A stretch of 64,000 nt of DNA, from positions 38,035,898 through 38,099,897 of the forward strand of contig CM036617.1 of assembly GCA_020746105.1 (NCBI GenBank), in the 5' to 3' direction. Position 1 is the stretch's first letter. Every line of letters starts with the position of its first letter. The notes below the pieces were generated by a model, which saw nothing but the letters and a program-made list of their open reading frames with translations, did no database searches and had not been told where the DNA came from. The position numbers and the translations under genes are program-made. This DNA comes from Trogon surrucura (lineage: Eukaryota > Chordata > Aves > Trogoniformes > Trogonidae). Of the stretch, positions 17,071-63,628 are shown in pieces.

Positions 17071-18236
17071 ATAGAATCATAGAATCATAGAATGTTAGGG
17101 ATTGGAAGGGACCTCGAAAGATCATCAAGTCCAATCCCCCTGCCAGAGCAGGAATGCCTAGATAATGCTACATAGGAACGTGTCCAGGCAGGTCTTGAAT
17201 GTCTCCAGAGAAGGAGACTCCACAGCCTCTCTGGGCAGCCTGTTCCAGTGTTCCGTCACCCTCACTGAGAAGAAGTTTCTTCTCGAGTTTAAGCGGAACC
17301 TCTTGTGTTCCAGTTTCAGCCCATTACCCCTTGTCCTATCAGTGGTTGTCACCGAGAAGAGCCTGGCTCCATCCTCGTGACACTCACCCTTGATATATTT
17401 GTAAACACTAATGAGGTCACCCCTCAGTCTCCTCCAAACTAAAGAGCCCCAGCTCCTTCAGTCTTTTCTCATAAGGGAGATGTTCCACTCCCTTAATCAT
17501 CCTAGTTGCCCTGTGCTGGACTCTCTCCAGCAGTTCCCTGTCTTTCTTGAACTGAGGGGCCCAGAACTGGACACAGTATTCCAGATGGGGTCTCACCAGG
17601 GCAGAGTAGAGGGGAAGGAGAACCTCTCTCGACCTACTAACCACCCCCCTTCTAATACACCCCAGGATGCCATTGGCCTTCCTGGCCACAAGGCCACAGT
17701 GCTGGCTCATGGTCATCCTGCTGTCCACCAAGACTCCCAGGTCCCTTTCCCCTACACTACTCTCTAATAAGTCATTCCCCAACTTATACTGGAACCTCGG
17801 GTTGTTCCTACCCAGATGCAAGACCCTACATTTACCCTTGTTATATTTCATTAAATTTTTCCCCGCCCAACCCTCCAGCCTGTCCAGGTCTCGCTGGATG
17901 GCAGCACAGCCTTCTGGTGTGTCAGCCACTCCTCCCAGCTTGGTGTCATCAGCAAACTTGCTGATAGTACTCTCTAGTCCCTCATCCAAGTCATCGATGA
18001 ATATATTGAATAATACTGGTCCCAGTACCGACCCTTGAGGCACTCCACTGGATACAGGTCTCCAACCAGACTCCGCCTCATTGACCACAACTCTTTGGCT
18101 TCTTCCCCTCAGCCAGTTCACAGTCCACCTCACTACCCGAGAGTCTAGACCACACTTCCTCAGTTTAGCAGCAAGGATGCTGTGGGAGACTGTGTCAAAT
18201 GCTTTACTGAAGTCAAGGTAGACCACATCCACCGCT
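17071..18236 (-). mobile_element. CR1 LINE, 5'-truncated (young subfamily)
   Basis: This 1.17-kb minus-strand CR1 runs from the tail repeat at 17071-17093 to a truncation point inside the reverse-transcriptase domain at about 18236. Its sequence is very close to the CR1 at 43.6-45.9 kb, including the tail text GTTAGGGATTGGAAGGGACC. They therefore belong to the same, comparatively recent subfamily. Truncation of the 5' end is the normal outcome of target-primed reverse transcription. Confidence 0.95.
17158..18232 (-). pseudogene. CR1 ORF2 reverse-transcriptase remnant
   Basis: The frame from 18232 to 17417 encodes 271 residues that begin at [20 protein letters not shown] (RT block with a catalytic Asp). 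It goes on through [16 protein letters not shown] and FADDTKLGG (the catalytic DD pair) to [12 protein letters not shown]. The frame shifts near 17430-17440. There, a segment that is longer in the sister copies at 45.55 kb and 59.3 kb has lost about five bases, so the last 64 codons (17352-17158) lie in another frame. The N-terminal endonuclease is absent. No product is expected. Confidence 0.92.
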
Positions 18237-43590: not shown

Positions 43591-45831
43591 ACTAGGAGAG
43601 GAGCACTGCTGGACCTCATCCTCGCTAACAAGGAGGATCTGGTTGAAGCAGTAAAGGTTGAGGGCTGCCTTGGCTGCAGTGACCATGAAAAGGTGGAGTT
43701 CAGGATCTCATGTAGCAGAAACAAAATAACAAGCAGAATTGCAACCCTGGACTTTGACAAGGCAAACTTTGGATTTTTCAAGCAATTACTAGAGAAAATC
43801 CCACGGGCAAGGCTGTTTGAAGGTAAAGGGGCCCAAGATAGTTGGTTAGTGTTCAGAGACTGCTTCTGCCGTGCTCAAGATCAGAGCATCCCGACACGTA
43901 GGAAGTCAAGGAAGGGAGCCAGGAGACCTGTGTGGCTAAACAGGGATCTGCTGGGTAAGCTCAAAGGCAAGAGGAGAATTTACAGATCTTGGAAGGCGGG
44001 GCTGGCCACTTTGGAAGAGTATAAGGCTGTTGTCCGAGGATGTAGGGAGGCAACTAGGAAAGCAAAGGCCTCCCTAGAATTGAACCTGGTGAGAGGGGTC
44101 AAGGACAACAAGAAGAGCTTTTTCAAATACGTGGCAGATAAAACTAACACCAGAGGCAATGTAGGCCCACTGATGAATGAGGTGGGTGCCTTGGTGACAG
44201 AAGATACAGAGAAGGCAGAGTTACTGAATGCCTTCTTTGCCTCTGTCTACTCTGCCGGAGGCTGTCCTGAGGAGCCCCGTTCCCCTGAGGCCCCAGAGGA
44301 AGTCAGGGCAGTGGAGGAGTCTGCTTTAGTCGATGAGGACTGGGTTAGGGACAAATTAAGCAATCTGGACATCCATAAATCCATGGGTCCAGACGGGATG
44401 CATCCACGGGTGCTGAGGGAGCTGGCTGATGTCATTGCTAGACCACTCTCCATCATCTTTGCCAAGTCTTGGGAGACGGGAGAGGTGCCTGAGGATTGGA
44501 GGGAAGCAAATGTCACTCCAGTCTTCAAAAAGGGCAAGAAGGAGGACCCGGGAAACTATAGACCGGTCAGCCTCACCTCCATCCTTGGGAAAGTGATGGA
44601 ACGACTTATCCTTGGTGCCATCTCAAGGCATATCAAGGATAAGAGGGTCATTAGAGACAGTCAACATGGCTTCACCAAGGGGAAGTCATGCTTGACTAAC
44701 CTCATAGCCTTTTACGAGGATATAACAAGGTGGATAGATGATGGCAGAGCGGTGGATGTGGTCTACCTTGACTTCAGTAAAGCATTTGACACAGTCTCCC
44801 ACAGCATCCTTGCTGCTAAACTGAGGAAGTGTGGTCTAGACTCTCGGGTAGTGAGGTGGACTGTGAACTGGCTAAGGGGAAGAAGCCAAAGAGTTGTGGT
44901 CAATGGGGTGGAGTCTGGTTGGAGGCCTGTATCCAGTGGAGTCCCTCAAGGGTCGGTACTGGGACCACTATTATTCAATATATTCATCGGTGACTTGGAT
45001 GAGGGACTAGAGAGTACTATCAGCAAGTTTGCTGATGACACCAAGCTGGGAGGAGTGGCTGACACACCAGAAGGCTGTGCTGCCATTCAGCGAGACCTGG
45101 ACAGGCTGGAGCGTTGGGCGGGGAAAAATTTAATGAAATATAACAAGGGTAAATGTAGGGTCTTGCATCTGGGTAGGAACAACCTCGGGTTCCAGTATAA
45201 ATTGGGGAATGACTTATTAGAGAGTAGTGTAGGGGAAAGGGACCTGGGAGTCTTGGTGGACAGCAGGATGACCATGAGCCAGCACTGTGCCCTTGTGGCC
45301 AGGAAGGCCAATGGCATCCTGGGGTCTATTAGAAGAGGGGTGGTTAGTAGGTCAAGAGAGGTTCTCCTTCCCCTCTACTCTGCCCTGGTGAGACCCCATC
45401 TGGAATACTGTGTCCAGTTCTGGGCCCCTCAGTTCAAGAAAGACAGGGAACTGCTGGAGAGAGTCCAGCACAGGGCAGCTAGGATGATTAAGGGAGTGGA
45501 GCATCTTCCTCATGAGAAAAGACTGAGGGAGCTGGGGCTCTTTAGTTTGGAGAAGAGGAGACTGAGGGGTGACCTCATTAATGTTTACAAATATATCAAG
45601 GGTGAGTGTCACGAGGATGGAGCCAGGCTCTTCTCGGTGACAACCACTGATAGGACAAGGGGTAATGGGCTGAAACTGGAACATAAGAGGTTCCGCTTAA
45701 ACTCCAGAAGAAACTTCTTCTCAGTGAGGGTGACGGAGCCCTGGAACAGGCTGCCCAGAGAGGCTGTGGAGTCTCCTTCTCTGGAGACATTCAAGACCTG
45801 CCTGGACACGTTCCTGTGTAGCATAATCTAG
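43588..45831 (+). pseudogene. CR1 ORF2 fragment, open reverse-transcriptase frame
   Basis: The frame is open from before the 5' truncation to a stop at 45829-45831, more than 740 codons. Full-length CR1 ORF2 also carries an N-terminal APE-type endonuclease, which is almost all missing here. Counting from codon 43693, the linker covers about residues 1-220 and the RT core about 225-480: [10 protein letters not shown] at 291, LDFSKAFD at 359 with a catalytic Asp, PQGSVLGP at 418 and FADD at 446. The remainder is the CR1 C-terminal region with [12 protein letters not shown]. Codons near 43693 are GTG, so no start is implied; there is no promoter or natural ATG. It is a dead-on-arrival copy, but too intact to be old. 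Confidence 0.93.
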
Positions 45832-48599: not shown

Positions 48600-48848
48600 A
48601 CAAAACCCCATGAAACTGGTGAAGCAGCTAATCCTGGAAACCTGATGAGAATATTATCAGGAGCAGTCAGCATGGATTCACCAAATGGAAGACATGCTTG
48701 ACCAACTCAATAATCTAAAAGCTTTTGCCAGTTTCTCCCATAAGATCTCAAATGGACAAATTGCAGCGACACATCATCAGTAGGGAAAAACTAACCTGAA
48801 CTTGTCTCATGATGGTCTAAGCCCAGGTCACATTCCCTCTTAGTGGGT
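48600..48848 (+). mobile_element. CR1 LINE fragment left of solo LTR
   Basis: The text GTCAGCATGGATTCACCAAA through CATGCTTGACCAACTC (about 48663-48705) is the CR1 SQHGFTK-KSCLTN reverse-transcriptase region, decayed. The sequence is cut at 48848 by the solo LTR. The start near 48600 is approximate. Confidence 0.7.
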
Positions 48849-50007
48849 TGTATTGGCTTGGCCTGGGCCAGATTTTGGCAGTAGGGGAGGAGTTGCAGGG
48901 TGGCTTCTGCAAGAAGCTGCTAGAAGCTTCCCAGGTTTAATAGAGCCAATGCCAGCCGACTCCAAAGAGGGACCTGCCGCTGGCCAAGGCTGAGCCCATC
49001 AGTGAAGTGATAGGAGAGGAACGCCTCTGTGAAAACATATTTAAGAATGGGGAAAAAGAACTGCACCACAACAGCTGGCACAGAGATGGAGGAGTGAGAA
49101 TATGTGAAGACACCAAGGTCAGTGAAGAGGGAGGGGGGGGGAAGGATGAGCTCCAGGCGCCGGAGCAGAGAGTCCCCTGGGTCCATGGTGAAGACCATGG
49201 TGAAGTGGGTTGTTCCCCTGCAGCCCGGGGTGTAGATGTCCACCGTGGGGCAGAGAACCCCACGCCCTGTGAGTGGATGCCTGGAGAGGGCTGTGGCCTG
49301 TTGGAAGCCCACGCTGGACCAGGTTGCTGCCAGAGCCTGTAGCCTATGGAAGAGTGAATGCTCACGCTGGAGCAGGTTGGCTGGTGGGACTTTTGGGACG
49401 TTGCGGAGGATTCACGCTGGACTCACGCTTCCCCTGAAGGACTGCACCTCAGTCTCAGGAGTGGGTTGCCCTTCGTGATGTGTCTCATGTTGGGCAGTTT
49501 GTGATGAATCGTCCTTCGTGAGAGGACTCACGCCGGAGAAGAGAGCGTGAAGCTTGTCTCCCGTGAGAGAGACCCCACAATGGCCCTGGAGAAGAGTGAA
49601 GATTCCTCCCCCGGAATGAAGACACAGTGGAACCAACATTGGATGAACTGACCGTAACCCCCACTCCCTGTCCCCCTGCGCTGCTCAAAGGGAGGAGGTG
49701 GAGAAATCAGGATTGATGTGGAGCCCGGGAAGAAGGGAGGGATGGGGGGAAGGTGTTCTGCTTTTAAGATCTGTTTGCTTTTTCTTATTTCTCACTACTC
49801 CTCTCTGATTTGTTCTTTTAATAAATGTAATTAATTTCCCCAAAATCGAGTCTGTTTTGCCTGGGACAGTAAATGAAAGTGATCTCCCTGTCCTTATTTC
49901 AAACCTCGAGCCCTTGGAAATATTTTCTCCCCCTGTCTAGCAGAGAAGGGGGAGTGAAAGAGGAGCTATGTGGGTACCTGGCTGCCAGCCAGAGTCAAAC
50001 TACAACA
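48849..50007 (+). mobile_element. Solo LTR, copy 1
   Basis: A 1159-bp unit begins TGTATTGG and ends ACTACAACA. It is flanked by an exact 5-bp target duplication, TGGGT (48844-48848 and 50008-50012). An AATAAA signal lies at 49820-49825, fixing plus orientation. A second copy is at 62444-63628. There is no internal retroviral sequence, so this is a solo LTR left by LTR-LTR recombination. TG...CA ends with a 5-bp duplication fit a class III (ERV-L-like) element. ORFs of up to about 140 codons inside it on both strands are non-coding chance frames in GC-rich sequence. Confidence 0.92.
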
Positions 50008-50755: not shown

Positions 50756-51220
50756 TTTTTAGAAATTTCTCACTTGTCTCTACAGCACATGATATGGGTA
50801 TTTTTTCTAATGAAATACAAAAAAAAAGCAGACATTAACAATACTTTTTCTCTTCCCCCCTCCCCCTATTTAACAGAGGTTTCTTGATTTTCCTGTTCTA
50901 CATAGTATGAATCTCTGTAGGATGTTCATAGAAGCGTGTTGTGGTTTGAAATACAGAAATGAGCATCTGTTAATGTTCTTGGGTTTCCATGACATTACAC
51001 ATTGACTGTGACTGCAAGAAATAGATGAAAAAATGTTGAACTAAATAAAATCTCCAGTTCATTCTTACATTCATTCTCTGTTGACATACCAAATTCTGAG
51101 GCAATAGAACAATGGTTTATGAAGCTACAAAAAAAAAGAGGAATATCTCTACTTTTTTAGAAGACTTCAGACAATTAAACTTGTGCTGAGATGCATAACT
51201 TTGTTTTCCTGATTGAAACC
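50756..51220. other. Intergenic DNA left of the provirus
   Basis: AT-rich, with no gene recognised. It ends in GAAACC directly before the proviral LTR. Confidence 0.6.
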
Positions 51221-52056
51221 TGTCGCGGGTTAGGGCTGGGCCGGCCACTAACGCGGACAGACGCTCTCTAACCGCCTCTTCCCCCCCTAAACGGGAAGAG
51301 AAAAGGGAATGAGGCAGAGAGACTTACCGGTGAGAGAAGAAAAAAAAACTAGAACAGCTTTAATGAAAATAATAGGAATAATGGTAAAGAGATAAAAGTA
51401 AAGAATTATATACAACTATAGATAGTAGCCCGATATCAAACCCGACTCCCTCCCCCGATAGAAATCACCACTGGTGCTGCAGAGCAGGAGGCACTGGGGA
51501 AACCCCAGGCTCAGCGGCGGCGGGAGCTGGATACAGGGAGCTGGATTCGGGAACTCAGGATCCGGATCAAAATCAGGAGGTCAGATGGAGTCCTCTCTGG
51601 ACACCGGCCATTGCAGAAAGGAAGGGCGAAAAGGCCGAAAAGGGCAAAAGGGGCAAAAGGGCCGAAAAAGGGCCGAAACTCTCGTGATCACTCAATTTAT
51701 ACTAAATATGACGTATATGGGATGGAATACTCTCGTTGGTCACCTGTCCTGTCTGTTACCCCCCGGAGGTGCCACCTTTTACTTCCTTGTGCCCCCCTCT
51801 TACTACCCAGCACCCCCAGCATGGCACACAAGAGCCAGCAGTGGCCTTGGTCACTATAGGAATAAGTATAAGCAAGAGCCTTTCTACATATCAGTCCCAG
51901 GCAGTAACTGTAAACATCAGGTGTTATCACTGCCAGTAGCACACACTGTCTGCAAAAACATGCTGCTGACTTCAGAAAGTGCAGCCTTTTAGAAGACACT
52001 AAACTGAAAAGAAAAAATCACTAAACAGGACTGGGTTTTTAGCTAAACCCAGGACA
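51221..52056 (-). repeat. 3' LTR of the provirus
   Basis: An 836-bp LTR that starts TGTCCTGGG and ends CGCGACA on the minus strand, with inverted TGTC/GACA termini. It is collinear with the other LTR at an offset of 6367. On the minus strand a TATATAA box lies at 51407-51413 and an ATTAAA signal at 51359-51364, giving a short R region near 51340-51385. U3 contains a GA-rich tandem repeat (about 51617-51680, AAAAGGGCC-like units). The 172- and 100-codon ORFs within the LTR are not taken as genes. Confidence 0.97.
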
Positions 52057-52067
52057 TTCCACCCCTT
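52057..52067 (-). other. Polypurine tract
   Basis: The minus strand reads AAGGGGTGGAA immediately before the 3' LTR TGTCC. It is the plus-strand primer, with one T interruption. Confidence 0.85.
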
Positions 52068-52250
52068 ATTCCATACCATTTACGTCATACTGATCACGAG
52101 CTAATGATCTACTTATAGGAAAAGTTCCGTAAGTTCATAAAGTTCAGAATCGTGGGTTCTATCCATCATGGCAGTCTCTCAGGGCAGGAAAGTTCATGTG
52201 GGATTCGTTACAGTTCGTGTCCATAGGTTGTAGGTTCACTTCAAAGAAGT

Positions 52251-52314
52251 TACTGGACGTCACTCGATGAGGCTAGCTCAGTTGTTGGATGTCACTCGAT
52301 GAGGTCAGCTCTGG
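52251..52314 (-). repeat. Two-copy 32-bp tandem repeat in the proviral 3' region
   Basis: Plus-strand GGACGTCACTCGATGAGG and GGATGTCACTCGATGAGG recur at a 32-base offset with few differences. A function, for example RNA export or stability, is not shown. Confidence 0.8.
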
Positions 52315-52375
52315 TCATCACTGGTTATTATTCTGAAAAACACTTATTGAACACTGTTAGTATTATGTAACAACA

Positions 52376-54970
52376 TCATACAGGATTAAATCGAGTATTC
52401 TCACCTAGAGTTAAATTTCCTTGAGGTACACATTGAACTTCACCATCTTTCATCATCACCCACCAAGTAGTTCCAGGTCCTTGAGCGAAAGCAACTCCAC
52501 GAATGGGTTTGCCTTTGCCCGAAGCAGGAAATACCCAGACAGTCTTCCCCAACAAATTCCTTTCATACACCACAGGGACTTTATCTCCCTCTACTGTATG
52601 CAAAGGCTCTGAATGAGCAGGACCAGCACGATTGATGGATCCTCTGGTGTTAACTAACCAGGTGGCTTGTGCTAAATGCTTGTCCCAGTTTTTAAAAGTT
52701 CCACCTCCCATAGCTTTCAGAGTAGTTTTTAACAGTCCATTGTATCGCTCAATTTTCCCAGAGGCTTGTGCATGATAAGGAATATGATATACCCATTCAA
52801 TACCATGTTCTTTAGCCCAATTGTCTATAAGAGTGTTTTTGAAATGAGTCCCATTATCTGATTCAATTCTTTCTGGAGTGCCATGTCGCCACAGGATCTG
52901 CTTTTCTAGGCCCAAGATAGTGTTTCTGGCAGTGGCGTGAGGCACAGGATACGTTTCTAACCATCCGGTAGTTGCTTCCACCATAGTGAGCACATAGCGC
53001 TTACCCTGGCGAGTTAGAGGAAGTGTGATGTAATCAATCTGCCAGGCCTCCCCATACCTATATTTTAACCATCGTTCCCCATACCACAAAGGTTTTAATC
53101 GCTTAGCTTGCTTAATTTCGGCGCATATTTCACAATCATGGATAACTTGCGCAATAGCGTCCATAGTTAAATCCACCCCTCGGTCACGAGCCCATCTGTA
53201 TGTTCCATCTCTTCCCTGATGTCCTGAAGTGTCGTGGGCCCACCGAGCTAGAAACAGTTCACCTTTATGTTCCCAGTCCAAGTCTATTTGGAACACTTGA
53301 GCAGCCTGATCCACTTGCTGGTTGTGTCGATGTTCCTCAGTGGCACGACTTTTGGGTACATGGGCATCTACGTGACGCACCTTTACAACTAAGTTCTCTA
53401 GCCGAGTAGCAATGTCTTGCCATATTTCAGCAGCCCAAATAGGCTTACCTCTGCGCTCCCAGTTATTGTTCTTCCACTGTTTTAACCAACCCCAAAAAGC
53501 ATTTGCCACCATCCATGAGTCAGTATAAAGATAGAGCACTGGCCATTTTTCCCGTTCAGCAATGTCTAAGGCCAGCTGGATGGCTTTTACCTCTGCAAAC
53601 TGACTTGATCCACCTTCTCCCTCAGTTGCCTCTGCAACGCGTCGTGTGGGACTCCACACAGCAGCTTTCCACTTACGACGATTTCCTACAAGGCGGCAAG
53701 ATCCATCAGTGAATAGGGCATACTGCTTTTCATTATCCGGTAACTGATTATATGGTGGAGCTTCCTCAGCACGTGTCACCACCTCCTTTGGGGGCACTGC
53801 AAGGTCTTTACCTTGTGGCCAGTCTGCGATTACCTCTAAAAGTCCTGGACGATTATGATGACCCATTCGAGCTCTCTGTGTAATTAGGGCAGTCCATTTA
53901 CTCCATGTAGCATCAGTGGCATGATGTGTGGAAGGAACTTTACTCTTGAGCATCCAGTTTAGGACTGGTATTCGTGGTACTAGGAGAAGCTGTGCCTCAG
54001 TACCAATCACTTCCGAAGCAGCTTTAACTCCTTCATATGCGGCCAATATTTCTTTTTCAGTTGCAGTATAGTTGGCCTCAGAGCCTCTATATTTTCGGCT
54101 CCAAAATCCTAAGGGTCGACCTCGAGTTTCTCCTGGTGCCCTCTGCCAGAGGCTCCAGGTAGGACCATTGTCCCCAGCTGCGGTATATAGCAAATTTTTA
54201 ATATCTTGCCCTGTTCGGATTGGCCCAAGAGCTACTGCTTGTACAATCTCTTGTTTGATTTGCTCAAAGGCCTGTTGCTGTTCAGGGCCCCATTGAAATT
54301 TGTTTTTCTTTCGAGTCACATCAAAAAGAGGTTTCACAATCTGACTATAACCCGGAATATGCATTCTCCAGAAACCCACAGTACCTAAGAAGGATTGTGT
54401 TTCTTTTTTGTTAGTTGGTGGCAACATAGCTGATATTGTGTCAATCACGTCTATTGGGATCTGGCGACGCCCATCTTGCCATTTCATTCCCAAATACTGG
54501 ATCTCTCGTGCAGGTCCCTTGACCTTGCTTCTCTTTATGGCAAAACCAGCATCCAAAAGAATCTCAATTATTTTCTTACCTTTCGTGAAAACTTCTTCTG
54601 CTGTGTTACCCCATACAATGATGTCATCGATGTATTGCAGATGTTCCGGAGCTCCACCTCTCTCCAGGGCGGTGTGGATCAGTCCATGGCAGATGGTAGG
54701 GCTGTGTTTCCACCCCTGGGGCAGTCGGTTCCAGGTGTACTGGATACCCCTCCAGGTGAAAGCAAACTGCGGCCTGCATTCTGCTGCTATAGGAATAGAG
54801 AAAAATGCATTAGCAATGTCAATTGTGGCATACCACTTAGCTGCCTTCGACTCCAGCTCATACTGAAGATCTAACATGTCCGGCACGGCAGCACTCATCG
54901 GTGGTGTAACCTCATTTAGGCCACGATAGTCTACAGTCAATCTCCATTCTCCATCAGACTTACGGACAGG
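52376..54970 (-). pseudogene. pol: pol: reverse transcriptase, RNase H, integrase (cut by an in-frame stop)
   Basis: The frame continues that of gag and protease after the TGA at 54971-54973, with 864 codons to a stop at 52376-52378. Residues are counted from the TTG at 54940. RT: D41 in DIANAF, RLPQGW at 72 and YIDD at 103-106. RNase H: D412, E450, D474 and the VRHVDAH block at 521-527. Integrase: zinc finger H569, H574, C603, C606; catalytic D636, D695, E731 (DD35E spacing); then a C-terminal domain. All catalytic residues are present. The single opal codon lies in the RT N-terminal region and disconnects everything downstream from gag-pro. No dUTPase follows integrase. YIDD and the integrase wording fit avian ERV-L-type pol. 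It would copy viral RNA and insert the DNA if it were made. Confidence 0.93.
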
Positions 54971-55567
54971 TCAGATAGGACTGTTAAATGGTGAGCGAGC
55001 TTTGCTGATCACTCCTTGGCTTTCTAGTTGACGTATCAGCTTATGGATGGGAACTACAGAGTCTCGGTTGGTACGATATTGTCGTCGATGCACTGTTTTA
55101 GTAGCAATTGGTACCTGTTGGTCTTCAGTTTTCATCAGCCCTACAACACTAGACTCCTCTGAAAGTTTGGGCAAGCTAGACAGCTGATCAATGTCCTCAG
55201 TCTCTACAGCTGCGATGCCAAAAGCCCATCGATACCCTCTTGGATCCTTGTAATACCCTTTCTTGAGGAAGTCTATGCCAAGAATGCATGGGGCATTTGG
55301 ACCAGTCACTATGGGGTGCTTTTTCCACATATTCCCAGTAAGGCTCATTTCAGCCTCCAATACAGACAGTTGTTGAGAACCACCTGTCACTCCAGAAATA
55401 GTAACAGTTTCAGTACTTGTATGATTCGATGGCATTAGAGTGCACTGTGCACCAGTGTCCACCAGAGCTCTATATTTTCGTGGTTCTAATGTGCCAGGCC
55501 ACCGAATCCACACAGTCCAATAAACTCGGTTGTCCCTCTCCTCCACCTGGCTGGAGGCAGGGCCCCT
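54971..55567 (-). CDS. pro: Retroviral aspartic protease and start of RT (readthrough product)
   Basis: An open frame of 198 codons directly follows the gag amber codon in the same frame and ends at a TGA (54971-54973). The protease active-site motif LVDTGAQCTLMP is followed by a flap-like SGVTGG region and the typical ILGIDFLKKG near its C-terminus. About 70 residues of connecting and RT N-terminal sequence follow (HKLIRQLESQGVISKARSPF). There is no ATG near its start, so it should be made only as a Gag fusion by readthrough. As an aspartic protease it would dimerise and cleave the polyprotein. A GTG at 55546 is not a credible start. Confidence 0.85.
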   Translation of the reverse strand, partial: RGPASSQVEERDNRVYWTVWIRWPGTLEPRKYRALVDTGAQCTLMPSNHTSTETVTISGVTGGSQQLSVLEAEMSLTGNMWKKHPIVTGPNAPCILGIDFLKKGYYKDPRGYRWAFGIAAVETEDIDQLSSLPKLSEESSVVGLMKTEDQQVPIATKTVHRRQYRTNRDSVVPIHKLIRQLESQGVISKARSPFNSPI

Positions 55568-55570
55568 CTA
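55536..55570 (-). promoter_or_regulatory. Amber codon plus hairpin, probable gag readthrough signal
   Basis: The gag stop TAG (55568-55570) is followed in the same frame by protease. Ten bases after it lies a perfect 6-bp stem, CCTCCA with TGGAGG (55557-55552 and 55545-55540 on the minus strand), closing a 6-base loop. A stop codon, short spacer and downstream structure is the arrangement used for termination suppression at gag-pol junctions of gammaretroviruses. Whether it works here is inferred. Confidence 0.55.
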
Positions 55571-57388
55571 ATTTTGAGGTTGATTCACGGGGTTTACTTG
55601 ATTCACGGTATTGGTATTAACTACATTTACATTCCGATTGTTCCTTCTCGTGGCAGATTGTTGTCTTCTATTGGTGTTTCGCAAATTGGATACTCGTTCT
55701 CGTAGAGCAGAAGTAGGTTTTCCATCCCAGTTTCTCATGTCCTCACCATATCCACGTAGGAAAATCCACAAGTCATTCCGTGACAAGTTGCCATCATTTT
55801 TAGTTGATCTTGAAGGTCTGTATTTTCTAACAGCATCAACGCGGCTCCATTGAGGTCTGTCATCTCTCTTGGACAATGTGTCAATCAGCTCTTTTAATGA
55901 TTGATTGGTTTTCTCAAATGATTCACTATTTTTCTCAATGGCTTGATTGGTTTTCTCCATTGCTTCATTGGTTTTCTCCATTGCTTTCCCAATGGATTGA
56001 TTCGTTTTCTCCATTGCTATCTCAATCGCTTTTTCAATTGATTTCTCCAGTGATCTGTTGTTTTCCTCGATTATTTTTTCCATGGCAGCAATCTGAATTT
56101 GTTGGGGATTGGCAGTACTGTCTTCATACTGTCGTGCTTTGTTGGCCACTTCACTCACTGTTGGTACCTGACCATCTCCATCTAATGCCCAGACCATTGT
56201 TGACAAGGTGTGCTTATACACTGGTGGGGCACTCCTCACAAACATCTGAATAACGTGTTTGTGGCAGGGCATTTGATCAGGGTTTAAAATTGTTTGTGGA
56301 TCGCTGTAAATCACCTCTCTCACTGCTAGTTCTCTCAGGAACTTAATGCCTTTTTCCATGTTGGTCCAGTTGGTTGTGTGGATAGGAATATCGTCTTTGT
56401 GGGTATACCGGTTCTTAATAGCTGTCAAGAGTCGTCTCCAGAGGCTGAGGCTGTTGTCGTCTTTTGCAAGTTCCGTATCAACGCCTGCGTTTCCAGAGAG
56501 GGATCCCAGCTGTTTGGCTTCTTTACCGTTCAGATTAATGGTCTCGGCTCCTTTATCCCAGCACCGGAGTAACCACTTGTAATATGATTCACCCTCACGA
56601 CGGCCAAAGTCCTTTCTCACATCTCGCATGTCCCTCAGAGTTAAAGGTTTGACAACTGCGTCTGATTCTGACCCTGAACTATCTGATGACTTCGATTGGG
56701 AAGGACCCTTTCCTGCATCAGAACCATCTGATGTTGGGTGATTTGTCTTTGTTAGATGTTTCTTCCCAGTCACAGGGATACCAGCTTTCTTTCCTGAGTC
56801 TGAATCTGAGTCATCTGATGGTGCTACTTTAGGAGGGCTTTGTCCTGGAGTTGTGTTATCTGTTGGTAGGGCAATTGACTTTCTACGATGTTTCTTTCTA
56901 GTCAAAGGGGCGACATTTGCTGATACACACTGAGTGTTAAAGGACACAGTGATACTCAATGACTTGCACAAATTCCTACAGAAACGCCACAATGCCAAGA
57001 GATTCATGGGCATTAACATCAGAATCAATAGCAATTCAATCTTTCGATTAAAATAACTGCATTCACAATCACAATCCTCAAAACCTGGTATACTCAGATT
57101 AGCAAACAAATTAGTATAATTTCCTAAGGTGAAATTGAAAGTGTAGTTAAAAACAAAATTCATCATTGTGCTCTTAAGGTATTCAGGTATGCCGATCACC
57201 CAAAATACTGCAGAATACACCGACACAAAAAAACCCAACACCGTGAAAATTCTCATTTTTAAATCAGAGCAGGCAAACCACAGACAGATATACCAAATCA
57301 CCCTCGAGAGTTTGGACAAAATTTTGACACCCAGGGAGGAACCCACATTTAAAAGAACATGACATAACATTTCACCGACTGATAACAT
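55568..57388 (-). CDS. gag: Gag-like polyprotein with N-terminal membrane domain
   Basis: A 606-residue intact frame starting at the first ATG after the leader and ending at an amber codon (55568-55570). Domains by residue: 1-45 weakly amphipathic, with a short hydrophobic patch 29-40; 46-66 strong transmembrane segment; 67-116 loop with sequons at N81, N85, N90, N97 and Cys 106, 108, 110; 117-134 second transmembrane segment; 164-170 basic RKKHRRK; 190-245 acidic Ser/Asp-rich linker; about 250-425 capsid-like helical region (LRDMRDVRKDFGRREGES, then FVRSAPPVYK); 435-505 coiled coil with repeated MEKTNQA-type units; 510-606 basic, Asn/Arg-rich tail. It would form the particle core. No CCHC zinc knuckle is present. 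Orthoretroviral Gag normally starts with a myristoylated matrix; a glycosylatable membrane loop is unusual. The capsid call is by position and wording only. Confidence 0.85.
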   Translation of the reverse strand: MLSVGEMLCHVLLNVGSSLGVKILSKLSRVIWYICLWFACSDLKMRIFTVLGFFVSVYSAVFWVIGIPEYLKSTMMNFVFNYTFNFTLGNYTNLFANLSIPGFEDCDCECSYFNRKIELLLILMLMPMNLLALWRFCRNLCKSLSITVSFNTQCVSANVAPLTRKKHRRKSIALPTDNTTPGQSPPKVAPSDDSDSDSGKKAGIPVTGKKHLTKTNHPTSDGSDAGKGPSQSKSSDSSGSESDAVVKPLTLRDMRDVRKDFGRREGESYYKWLLRCWDKGAETINLNGKEAKQLGSLSGNAGVDTELAKDDNSLSLWRRLLTAIKNRYTHKDDIPIHTTNWTNMEKGIKFLRELAVREVIYSDPQTILNPDQMPCHKHVIQMFVRSAPPVYKHTLSTMVWALDGDGQVPTVSEVANKARQYEDSTANPQQIQIAAMEKIIEENNRSLEKSIEKAIEIAMEKTNQSIGKAMEKTNEAMEKTNQAIEKNSESFEKTNQSLKELIDTLSKRDDRPQWSRVDAVRKYRPSRSTKNDGNLSRNDLWIFLRGYGEDMRNWDGKPTSALRERVSNLRNTNRRQQSATRRNNRNVNVVNTNTVNQVNPVNQPQN

Positions 57389-57562
57389 GATGTGAGCTGT
57401 CTGTTTTTTTCTCCTCTAACCCTTCAGAACTCTCAAAGAAAAGATCTGATACGCTCTCAACTGCGCCGGATGGAATTTAAACTATGCGGGCAATATATCA
57501 GAGCCCAGTTGTGTCTAAGTAACTGGTAAAATAGTCTGAGCCTGATTGGTGTTTGTTTTCGT
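57389..57562 (-). other. Retroviral 5' leader
   Basis: About 174 bases between the primer site and the gag ATG. There is no other ATG in the leader, so the gag start is the first available. It would be expected to hold the packaging signal, but no specific structure was identified. Confidence 0.6.
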
Positions 57563-57580
57563 GCCCCACGTTGGGCGCCA
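57563..57580 (-). other. Primer-binding site, tRNA-Lys1,2
   Basis: The minus strand reads TGGCGCCCAACGTGGGGC. This is the 18-base complement of the 3' end of tRNA-Lys1,2, as used by Mason-Pfizer monkey virus and foamy viruses. It lies 7 bases (57581-57587) after the end of the 5' LTR, a longer gap than the usual 0-3. It primes minus-strand DNA synthesis. Confidence 0.92.
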
Positions 57581-57687
57581 ATAAATCTGTCGCGGGTTAG
57601 GGCTGGGCCGGCCACTAACGCGGACAGACGCTCTCTAACCGCCTCTTCCCCCCCTAAACGGGAAGAGAAAAGGGAATGAGGCAGAGA

Positions 57688-57695
57688 GACTTACC
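57688..57695 (-). promoter_or_regulatory. Putative 5' splice donor in R/U5
   Basis: The minus strand reads CACCG followed by GTAAGTC, close to the consensus donor. The same site is in the other LTR at 51321-51328. Without an env gene a donor this early has no obvious viral subgenomic RNA to make, but it could create chimeric transcripts with neighbouring host sequence. Confidence 0.4.
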
Positions 57696-57773
57696 GGTGA
57701 GAGAAGAAAAAAAAACTAGAACAGCTTTAATGAAAATAATAGGAATAATGGTAAAGAGATAAAAGTAAAGAAT

Positions 57774-57780
57774 TATATAC
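57774..57780 (-). promoter_or_regulatory. Putative TATA box in the 5' LTR
   Basis: The minus strand reads GTTGTATATAATTC. It lies about 190 bases from the LTR end, with an ATTAAA word some 50 bases downstream, which fits a U3/R boundary. It is a motif only; the start site is not shown. Confidence 0.5.
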
Positions 57781-58423
57781 AACTATAGATAGTAGCCCGA
57801 TATCAAACCCGACTCCCTCCCCCGATAGAAATCACCACTGGTGCTGCAGAGCAGGAGGCACTGGGGAAACCCCAGGCTCAGCGGCGGCGGGAGCTGGATA
57901 CAGGGAGCTGGATTCGGGAACTCAGGATCCGGATCAAAATCAGGAGGTCAGATGGAGTCCTCTCTGGACACCGGCCATTGCAGAAAGGAAGGGCGAAAAG
58001 GCCGAAAAGGGCAAAAGGGGCAAAAGGGCCGAAAAAGGGACGAAACTCTCGTGATCACTCAATTTATACTAAATATGACGTATATGGGATGGAATACTCT
58101 CGTTGGTCACCTGTCCTGTCTGTTACCCCCCGGAGGTGCCACCTTTTACTTCCTTGTGCCCCCCTCTTACTACCCAGCACCCCCAGCATGGCACACAAGA
58201 GCCAGCAGTGGCCTTGGTCACTATAGGAATAAGTATAAGCAAGAGCCTTTCTACATATCAGTCCCAGGCAGTAACTGTAAACATCAGGTGTTATCACTGC
58301 CAGTAGCACACACTGTCTGCAAAAACATGCTGCTGACTTCAGAAAGTGCAGCCTTTTAGAAGACACTAAACTGAAAAGAAAAAATCACTAAACAGGACTG
58401 GGTTTTTAGCTAAACCCAGGACA

Positions 58424-58947
58424 AAAACTATTTGATTATTGGTGGAAAAGTGAAGAATAAAACCAGTTACCAAAGGAATACATTTTACATTCTTTAACTA
58501 TCCTATTTGACTTTGACTTTGTATACTGTCTCTGAAAAAAAAAGCAACCAAAAATCAGGACAATCACACAGTACCAGTGCCAACCTTCTCTCTCTGAAAA
58601 AGTCAGTTAATTTCTCTTTGGTACATCTGGAATTTTTCCATGTGAAATATTTGTTCTTTGCATGTATAAGTCAGAGATAACAACTAGCTCTGTGAGAATT
58701 TTTAGTATCTGAAAGAAAAAAGGAGCTTCGTTGAAAGACAGAATTTCTCTTACCAGTCTGGTCACTGCTAAAGCTCATAAAGAACATTTGCAGCTTACTT
58801 CTAAAGCTGTATAAATAGTCGAGAGAAGGGAGGCAGGCACAGCAGTGCAATTCGAAAAACTGAACTGGGTAGATTTGGTTCCAGACAATTTTGTATCTCT
58901 TTTTTTTTTTTTTTCCCCCGATTAAAGTTCCTACAATACACTCCTAA
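58424..58947. other. Intergenic DNA right of the provirus
   Basis: Starts with AAAAC, the imperfect partner of the left flank. No gene recognised. A poly-T run lies near 58900-58914. Confidence 0.55.
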
Positions 58948-59454
58948 TCATAGAATCATAGAATCATAGAATGTTAGGGATTGGAAGGGACCTCGAAAGA
59001 TCATCAAGTCCAATCCCCCTGCCAGAGCAGGAATGCCTAGATTATGCTACACAGGAACGTGTCCAGGCAGGTCTTGAATGTCTCCAGAGAAGGAGACTCC
59101 ACAACCTCCCTGGGCAGCCCGTTCCAGTGTTCCGTCACCCTCACTGAGAAGAAGTTTCTTCTCGAGTTTAAGCGGAACCTCTTATGTTCCAGTTTCAGCC
59201 CATTACCCCTTGTCCTGTCACTGGTTGTCACCGAGAAGAGCCTGGCTCCATCCTCGTGACACTCACCCTTGATATATTTGTAAACATTAATGAGGTCACC
59301 CCTCAGCCTCCTCTTCTCCAAACTAAAGAGCCCCAGCTCCCTCAGTCTTTCCTCATAAGGGAGATGCTCCACTTCCTTAATCATCCTAGTTGCCCTGTGC
59401 TGGACTCTCCAGCAGTTCCCTGTCTTTCTTGAACTGAGGGGCCCAGAACTGGAC
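58948..59454 (-). mobile_element. CR1 LINE 3' fragment (young subfamily)
   Basis: This 507-bp minus-strand copy ends in tail repeats at 58948-58970 and is nearly identical in text to the 17.1- and 45.9-kb copies. The frame from 59456 to 59037 encodes 139 residues of the ORF2 C-terminus (ERVQHRA-like text close to its start, then [20 protein letters not shown]). The stop is at the normal place. A small deletion near 59408 (CTCTCC where sisters have CTCTCTCC) shifts the frame before that. Confidence 0.94.
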
Positions 59455-60011
59455 ATAAAGATTTATTTTGATATTTTCTTAGAATAGACGTAATCATAGT
59501 TTATTTAAAATATTGCAGTATGAACATGAATTCATTTCTATTTGGCAATAACAGAACAGAGTTTTCAAACTTTTAGGACTGTCCATTTTATGGAAAGAGT
59601 TTCAAAACTGATTGACGAAAGTAAGAACTCTTTGTATAATAGAGGACTCAAACTCTCATATTTTAATGAACTCATTAATTCTTCCCCCTTCCAGAATTAC
59701 CCAGTTCAGCTTTCAGTAGTCACCATAACCTAACGTTTCTTTTCTCTTCATATTAAGAAAAAAAAAAAAAATCAGGAAGAAGGTTTTGAGAGACAAGACT
59801 GATATACTTTAACGTGAGAGTTCATATACATAGGATGTTTGCAATGGAAAAATAAGAAATACAAGAGCAAAAAAAAAAAAAAAGATTGAATTTACTACTA
59901 TTATTAATGTCTTAAATTGTCTGTCCTGTAGAATGCATCTCCTTTTTTTTTTTTTTTTTAGTTCATTTGAGAATCTCTCTCTTTTTCTTCCCTCTCAGTC
60001 TGGATTTTTAA
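59455..60011. other. Intergenic AT-rich DNA
   Basis: No gene recognised. Poly-A and poly-T runs lie at 59757-59770, 59869-59883 and 59944-59959. Confidence 0.55.
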
Positions 60012-62438: not shown

Positions 62439-62443
62439 ATTGT

Positions 62444-63628
62444 TGTTTTGGTTTGGTCTGGTCGGATTTTGGTGGTGGCGGGGGGAGCTGCAGGGTGGCT
62501 TCTGCAAGAAGCTGCTAGAAGCTCCCCAGGTTTGATAGAGCCAATGCCAGCCGGCTACAAAGAGGGACCCGCCGCTGGCCAAGGCTGAGCCTATCAGTAA
62601 GGTGATAGCAGAGGAACACCTCTGTGAAAAACATATTTAAGAACGGGAAAAAGAACTGCGCCACAACAGCTGGCACAGAGATGGAGGAGTGAGAATCTGT
62701 GAAGACACCAAGGTCAGTGAAGAAGGAGGAGGGGGGAGGATGAGCTCCAGGCGCCGGAGCAGAAGGAGTCCCCCGGGTCCGTGGCGAAGACCATGGTGAA
62801 GCGGGTTGTCCCCCTGCAGCCCATGGGCGAGGTGCAGATGTCCACCGTGAGGATCACCGCGTAGATGTCCACCGAGGACTCCATGACGTGTGGGTGGATG
62901 CCTGGAGGGGGCTGTAGCCCGTGGGAAGCCCGCATCAGAGCAAGTCGCTTCCAGAACCTGTAGCCCGTGGAAGAGAGGAATGTCCATGCTGGAGCAGGTT
63001 GGCTGGTGGGACTTTTGGGACGCTGCGGGTGGCTCACACTGGAGGAGTTTCCCCCGAAGGACTGCACCTCAGACTCACGAGGGGTGGGCTGCCCCTTGTG
63101 AGGTGTCTCCGGTTGGGCAGTTTGTGATGAATTGCCCTTCGTGGGATGACTCATGCCGGAGAAGAGAGCGTGAAGCTTGTCTCCCGTGAGAGGGACCCCA
63201 CAATGGCCCTGGGGAAGAGTGAAGAGTCCTTCCCTGGAGCGAAGAAGCAGTGAAACCAACGTCGGATGAACTGACCGCAGCCCCCATTCCCTGTGTCCCT
63301 GTGACGCTCAGGGGGAGGAGGTGGAGAAACCGGGATTGATGTTAAGCCCGGGAAGAAGGGAGGGATGGGGGGAAGGTGTTCTGTTTAAGATCTGTTTGCT
63401 CTTTCTCACTTCTCACTACTCCTCTCTGATTAGTTCGCTTAATAAATGTACCTAATTTGCCCAAAACTGAGTCTGTTTTGCCCGGGATGGTAAATGAGGG
63501 TGATCTCCCTGTCCTTATTTCAAACCTCGAGCCCTTGGAAATATTTTCTCCCCCTGTCTAGCAGAGAAGGGGGAGTGAAAGAGGAGCTATGTGGGTACCT
63601 GGTGGCTGGCCAGGGTCAACCCACGACA
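62444..63628 (+). mobile_element. Solo LTR, copy 2
   Basis: A 1185-bp unit begins TGTTTTGG and ends CACGACA. It is flanked by an exact 5-bp duplication, ATTGT (62439-62443 and 63629-63633). It is collinear with the solo LTR at 48849-50007 but carries extra sequence near 62820-62880, where an AGATGTCCACCG word occurs twice. AATAAA lies at 63441-63446. It is an independent insertion of the same family, reduced to a solo LTR. ORFs up to 181 codons inside it are chance frames. Confidence 0.92.

Follow-up and report, generated by a model that had tools for sequence, protein, structure and literature searches.

A predicted glycosylatable membrane hairpin at the N-terminus of Gag in an env-less, ERV-L-like element of birds

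How the Gag protein of a retroelement without an envelope gene might reach a membrane is the question raised by a provirus in the genome of Trogon surrucura. The accepted routes of retroviral Gag to membranes are a fatty acid, a basic surface and, in the case of foamy viruses, an interaction with Env. The provirus lies on the reverse strand of a 64,000-nucleotide stretch of contig CM036617.1 (assembly GCA_020746105.1, positions 38,035,898 to 38,099,897), which is referred to as the window and in which all coordinates below are given. Its gag open reading frame (55568..57388, 606 amino acids, open throughout and ending in TAG) starts with two hydrophobic segments separated by a loop with four sequons, an arrangement that an earlier note on this DNA had interpreted as a membrane hairpin. 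The reading favoured here, with a probability of roughly 0.55, is that this Gag belongs to an avian env-less element resembling the endogenous retrovirus (ERV) family ERV-L, and that the protein carries an old N-terminal membrane module which likely serves as an endoplasmic reticulum (ER) anchor for intracellular assembly. If this is true, a conserved glycosylatable hairpin in Gag would be a further route to membranes, and it would explain the assembly of env-less elements at internal membranes. No description of such a hairpin was noticed in a literature search that covered titles and abstract openings, with few subscription journals within reach.

The features of the N-terminus in the window copy are straightforward to locate, and recomputation reproduced all of those that had been described. 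Hydrophobic segment 1, a putative membrane span, occupies Gag residues 47-67 (57188..57250); it is followed by a putative lumenal loop (residues 68-115, 57044..57187) that contains the sequons N81, N85, N90 and N97 and the cysteines 106, 108 and 110, by hydrophobic segment 2, also a putative span (residues 116-137, 56978..57043), and by a basic patch (residues 164-170, 56879..56899) which by eye resembles the motif VAPxxKKKxxxKS of related proteins. The Kyte-Doolittle maxima over 19 residues are 2.21 (residues 47-65) and 1.96 (residues 119-137), and the best value past residue 150 is 0.35. A membrane-segment score based on an insertion scale, with a weighting of our own, likewise places two segments in residues 1-160 (47-67 and 116-134) and none beyond. 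Further sequons occur outside the loop at residues 178, 340, 444, 463, 495 and 534.

Whether this arrangement is unusual depends on the background against which it is judged. Two windows scoring at least 1.9 appear in 0.1% of 5000 shuffles of the whole Gag, and at least four sequons appear in 0.3% of 20000 shuffles of the loop, but when residues 1-150 are shuffled alone two such windows appear in 26% of 20000 cases. Codons 1-150 are T-rich at all three positions (0.38/0.45/0.38, compared to 0.15/0.20/0.26 in the remaining Gag). Since the first 150 residues are hydrophobic overall as well as T-rich, the spacing of the segments is not striking in itself, and since the peaks are rare only against the whole-Gag shuffles, the role of chance is better judged from related proteins, where a shared layout is stronger evidence than any statistic computed within the window.

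A protein search with the window Gag, in which scoring covered only the 7995 candidates with the most shared words, found 116 relatives, and a search with the N-terminus and hairpin of one of these (P0009) returned 55 gag-like proteins, all from birds where a host is named, of which 30 were new, for a total of 146. In IMG/VR, neither pol nor the Gag alignment picked up any relative. The named hosts include Mycteria, Grus, Balearica, Anas, Anser, Buteo, Accipiter, Morphnus, Theristicus, Tyto and Chamaea. In 93 of the 146 relatives the hairpin region is followed by a conserved globular domain with the pattern GWxGVWxxMGxxL...FTPEQ. The window Gag lacks this domain, as no part of it gives a significant match. 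This domain has no convincing fold in a model of P0009 (mean predicted local distance difference test score, pLDDT, of 56, which is low confidence) and is therefore not named matrix here.

At least 75 residues precede the domain in 39 relatives, of which 22 were judged to have a native start (Met-Leu or similar), a choice made by eye and not blind to the outcome; the other 17, among those covered by a partial inspection, were gene models that had been cut short or fused. Of the 22 native-start relatives, 20 (all but P0032 and P0136) have at least two Kyte-Doolittle peaks of 1.5 or higher, and 20 have a sequon. When 21 of the N-termini are aligned, a single column reads N-x-S/T in 19, where x may be Y, S, Q or R and the flanking residues vary. 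No two of eight representative N-termini share more than 50% identity. The retention of a sequon whose middle residue and flanks vary is the pattern that, on this protein-level argument, would be expected from selection for glycosylation rather than for the sequence as such, and because layout and aligned sequon are common to such diverged relatives, the N-terminal hairpin looks like an old conserved module and not a chance extension. The earlier note had proposed looking for the same N-terminus in avian relatives, and the layout is present in several bird genera. It had also named, as the case that would count against it, relatives with no hairpin and a gag start at around residue 250. The complete-looking relatives do not show this, but in 12 of the 116 the first residue corresponds to Met257; these are gene models from Mycteria and Grus japonensis and are taken to be 5'-truncated.

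The charges around the segments bear on the orientation of the hairpin. In the window Gag K/R outnumber D/E by 5:2 ahead of segment 1 and by 3:0 past segment 2, but are outnumbered 3:5 within the loop. All 18 scored relatives likewise have a loop with a net negative charge and a strongly basic region past the last segment. Oligosaccharyl transferase needs about 12-14 residues between its acceptor site and a membrane segment. N81 lies 14 residues past segment 1 and N97 lies 19 residues ahead of segment 2, so that the spacing of both is sufficient for the enzyme. Charges and sequons thus fit the orientation that had been predicted, in which the loop would lie in the lumen, or outside the cell, and the capsid part would face the cytosol.

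Several observations weigh against this picture. At least three hydrophobic segments are found in 14 of the 18 scored relatives, which leaves the number of spans and the side of the N-terminus uncertain and makes an extra N-terminal span possible; moreover, 4 of the 22 native-start relatives failed the two-segment score, and the crane relatives P0071 and P0073 have no sequon. The structure prediction that had been suggested was run with AlphaFold2, using alignments of 50 (A2) and 44 (A3) relatives hand-picked from the 146, placed beside the window Gag or replacing it. The model has three helices (residues 18-65, 69-96 and 111-143) that do not form a clean hairpin, with a pLDDT of 59-74 in the segments and of 29-55 across residues 81-110; residues 144-241 are predicted to be disordered. 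The sequence match between the hairpin of the window and those of the relatives is also weak. A profile of the relatives' hairpins ranks the window second of 502 by full score, at least four shuffles outscore it by best-domain score among the matches listed, and hhalign gives a probability of 2% (P 0.024, 23 columns), which is still above all 60 shuffles.

Homology of the window hairpin therefore rests on position and layout. N81 aligns with the relatives' sequon, and position, spacing and the downstream basic motif also agree, so that the window hairpin is probably the same module. In a capsid tree of 24 hand-chosen rows (4 of 28 having been dropped for want of an anchor) the window branch is 1.4 changes per site long, and no row shares more than 47% identity with the window sequence; given so long a branch, thin similarity in a membrane segment is unsurprising.

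What was observed is that two hydrophobic segments, sequons, a capsid-like fold and the lack of env occur together in this copy, and that relatives have the layout in common. In the favoured reading, the signal recognition particle would recognize segment 1 on the nascent chain and bring the Gag mRNA to the ER, where segments 1 and 2 would insert as a hairpin. Its loop would pass into the lumen and receive N-glycans, and Gag past residue 137 would remain cytosolic, as the charges and sequons suggest. The basic patch, capsid lobes and a long helix might then oligomerize on the ER membrane, and particles would assemble at, and perhaps bud into, the ER, giving a retrotransposition cycle internal to the cell with no need for myristate or Env. 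Env-deficient MuERV-L forms particles within the cell, which gather in the ER (PMC5930517), and by this parallel the window Gag may assemble there too. One review proposes that in some elements membrane-associated assembly may be older than Env (PMC7828637), an idea that a Gag with its own hairpin would fit. It is a good deal more speculative, and on balance improbable, that in a lineage without Env the N-glycosylated hairpin would give every capsid subunit both an anchor and a glycosylated outer face, and hence a single-protein enveloped particle, made inside cells and possibly passed between them.

The same topology and sequons would also fit a hairpin that sends Gag along the secretory route to the surface of the cell, from which particles or vesicles containing Gag only would bud with the glycosylated loop outside. 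GFP-tagged XtERV-S Gag does reach the plasma membrane (PMC8278194), and the window Gag has one PPVY motif, at residue 388, though this lies within the capsid region; PSAP/PTAP and YPxxL motifs were not found in it, and the ER site of MuERV-L particles speaks against surface budding, which is possible but clearly less probable than assembly at the ER. Rather doubtful is an N-terminus that acts as a separate accessory product, released by protease or by splicing past segment 2 to leave a cytosolic Gag. Murine leukaemia virus (MLV) glyco-Gag offers a precedent as a membrane form produced beside Gag from one gag locus (PMC3423011), and three fusions to USP4 and several Mycteria models, which join gag right after segment 2, hint at a splice acceptor. 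These joins are known from gene models, not transcripts, and in the window the sequence TTTCTGTAG at the equivalent site (codons 135-138, placed by eye) failed a crude splice-acceptor scan. Nor is there an ATG in the 200 nucleotides upstream of gag, and the hairpin belongs to the long frame that runs from the first in-frame AUG.

The earlier note had also raised the idea of an env remnant or captured gene at the front of gag. The foamy virus Env leader peptide, an N-terminal membrane module of 120-130 amino acids with a role in budding and particle release, is similar in size and task (PMC7828637). This origin is nonetheless very improbable, whether from an env leader or a host membrane gene, as residues 1-172 alone matched no homologue at E<=10 among 171 candidates, and the search with the P0009 hairpin led back to gag-like proteins. 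Least probable of all is an extension that is open, T-rich and hydrophobic by accident: the T-richness at every codon position, the 26% of shuffles and the weak match between the hairpins are what it would predict, but it does not account for the layout and aligned sequon of relatives so different from each other.

The hairpin differs from other means by which Gag is associated with membranes. Intracisternal A particles are env-less and bud into the ER by means of an ER-targeting signal in Gag; in the window Gag a glycosylatable hairpin would take the place of that signal. MLV glyco-Gag is a membrane-inserted, glycosylated form of Gag, a state that is predicted for the window Gag, but it is an extra, type II form made from an upstream CUG, with its unique N-terminus in the cytosol (PMC3423011), whereas the window Gag would have its hairpin of two segments in the AUG-started protein and its capsid in the cytosol. 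Ty1 Gag takes a co-translational route to the ER before assembly that depends on the signal recognition particle, yet has no discernible signal or transmembrane segment; the protein passes into the lumen, from which it is believed to come back (PMC3945221). Drosophila Gagr, a gag-derived protein believed to sit anchored in the ER membrane, has a single GV-rich segment and is the product of a domesticated host gene (PMC8956099). Xenopus XtERV-S shares with the window element an ERV-L-like gag and pol, a gag stop in frame with pro-pol and basic Gag patches, but it has env and dUTPase, and its tagged Gag is found at the plasma membrane and in the nucleus (PMC8278194).

The element resembles MuERV-L and ERV-L in lacking env, a myristate signal and a Cys-His box, the latter two also being absent in ERV-L according to Table 2 of PMC8278194, and its Pol has the ERV-L features of that table (YIDD, a DYR motif, and integrase with HX4HX28CX2C and DX58DX35E). 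It differs from ERV-L in that the window Gag has no match to the GQR motif and pol has no Pfam match to dUTPase, 123 residues following the catalytic E; the same table, the sole description compared, lists no membrane segment for ERV-L Gag. The major homology region is ambiguous: the pattern QX3EX4(hydrophobic)X2R matches strictly only at residue 496, outside the capsid, and in relaxed form at 263, 341 and 545. Residues 263-275 were considered for this role and dropped, since the capsid model speaks against them. For these reasons the element is called ERV-L-like, and not ERV-L.

A structure model assigns residues 251-427 (56108..56638) to capsid, with residues 328-427 like the C-lobe of retroviral and Arc capsids, and this modelled fold identifies the protein as a retroviral Gag. 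It is followed by a predicted long helix (residues 428-506, 55871..56107), derived in part from 21-bp tandem repeats, and by C-terminal helices that are present in relatives too (residues 537-586, 55631..55780). Database searches were less informative: Pfam gave no match near the cut-off for the window Gag and weak scattered matches for 45 aligned Gags (best E 0.012), the PDB, searched by sequence, offered no hit better than E 0.26 and 1.5, and with Foldseek alone neither PDB nor BFVD yielded a match at E<=0.001.

The remainder of the provirus is compact. The gag frame continues, past the TAG that separates them, into protease and the start of reverse transcriptase (54971..55567) and pol (reverse transcriptase, RNase H and integrase, 52376..54940), and a TGA at 54971-54973 interrupts pol near the start of reverse transcriptase. 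The 319 nucleotides between the pol stop and the 3' long terminal repeat (LTR) contain no open reading frame of at least 80 amino acids, so the description of this copy as env-less holds. Lack of env there and a pol in the gag frame set the element apart from foamy viruses, whose pol has a separate frame with its own start (PMC8278194).

The 5' LTR (TG...CA, 57588..58423) was delimited by alignment to 51216-52056 and the 3' LTR (51221..52056) by the same alignment; 839 of 841 aligned positions are identical, with one difference within the 836-bp TG...CA span, and such near-identity implies a recent insertion. The flanking AAACC (51216-51220) and AAAAC (58424-58428) do not form an exact target-site duplication. 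The primer binding site read from the sequence, TGGCGCCCAACGTGGGGC (57563..57580), is presumably of the tRNA-Lys type. A strong splice-donor-like ACCG/GTAAGT occurs near 57693, inside the 5' LTR, despite there being no env to splice to, and an Rfam scan of 51000-58600 gave no match.

The gene models that join gag past the hairpin are of interest in their own right. In P0007 (Buteo), P0078 (Accipiter) and P0040 (Tyto) the N-terminus of USP4 (...FLAKSCLGLQK) is fused to a long gag frame just past the hairpin. In a tree of 23 hand-chosen rows the gag parts of the hawks and the owl group together as a single clade (98/98). Apart from the two hawks themselves, it is the owl part that matches the hawk parts best by bit score (Buteo and Tyto being 75% identical over 507 columns), with some non-fusion copies showing similar percentages over shorter stretches. 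This is the pattern expected of one old insertion kept open, which makes USP4-gag a candidate domesticated gag at the level of gene models; no paper on it was noticed in the literature search. Separate Mycteria gene models (P0019, P0062, P0102 and P0120) join gag at the same point past segment 2, which suggests, as far as gene models can, a usable splice acceptor at the border between hairpin and domain.

Two further observations concern the surroundings of the provirus. It is flanked by direct repeats of about 1.2 kb (48847-50007 and 62442-63628) that are 85% identical, and a non-LTR reverse transcriptase frame of 712 codons, which we take to be CR1-like, lies at 43693-45831, with related copies at 17071-18236 and 58948-59455.
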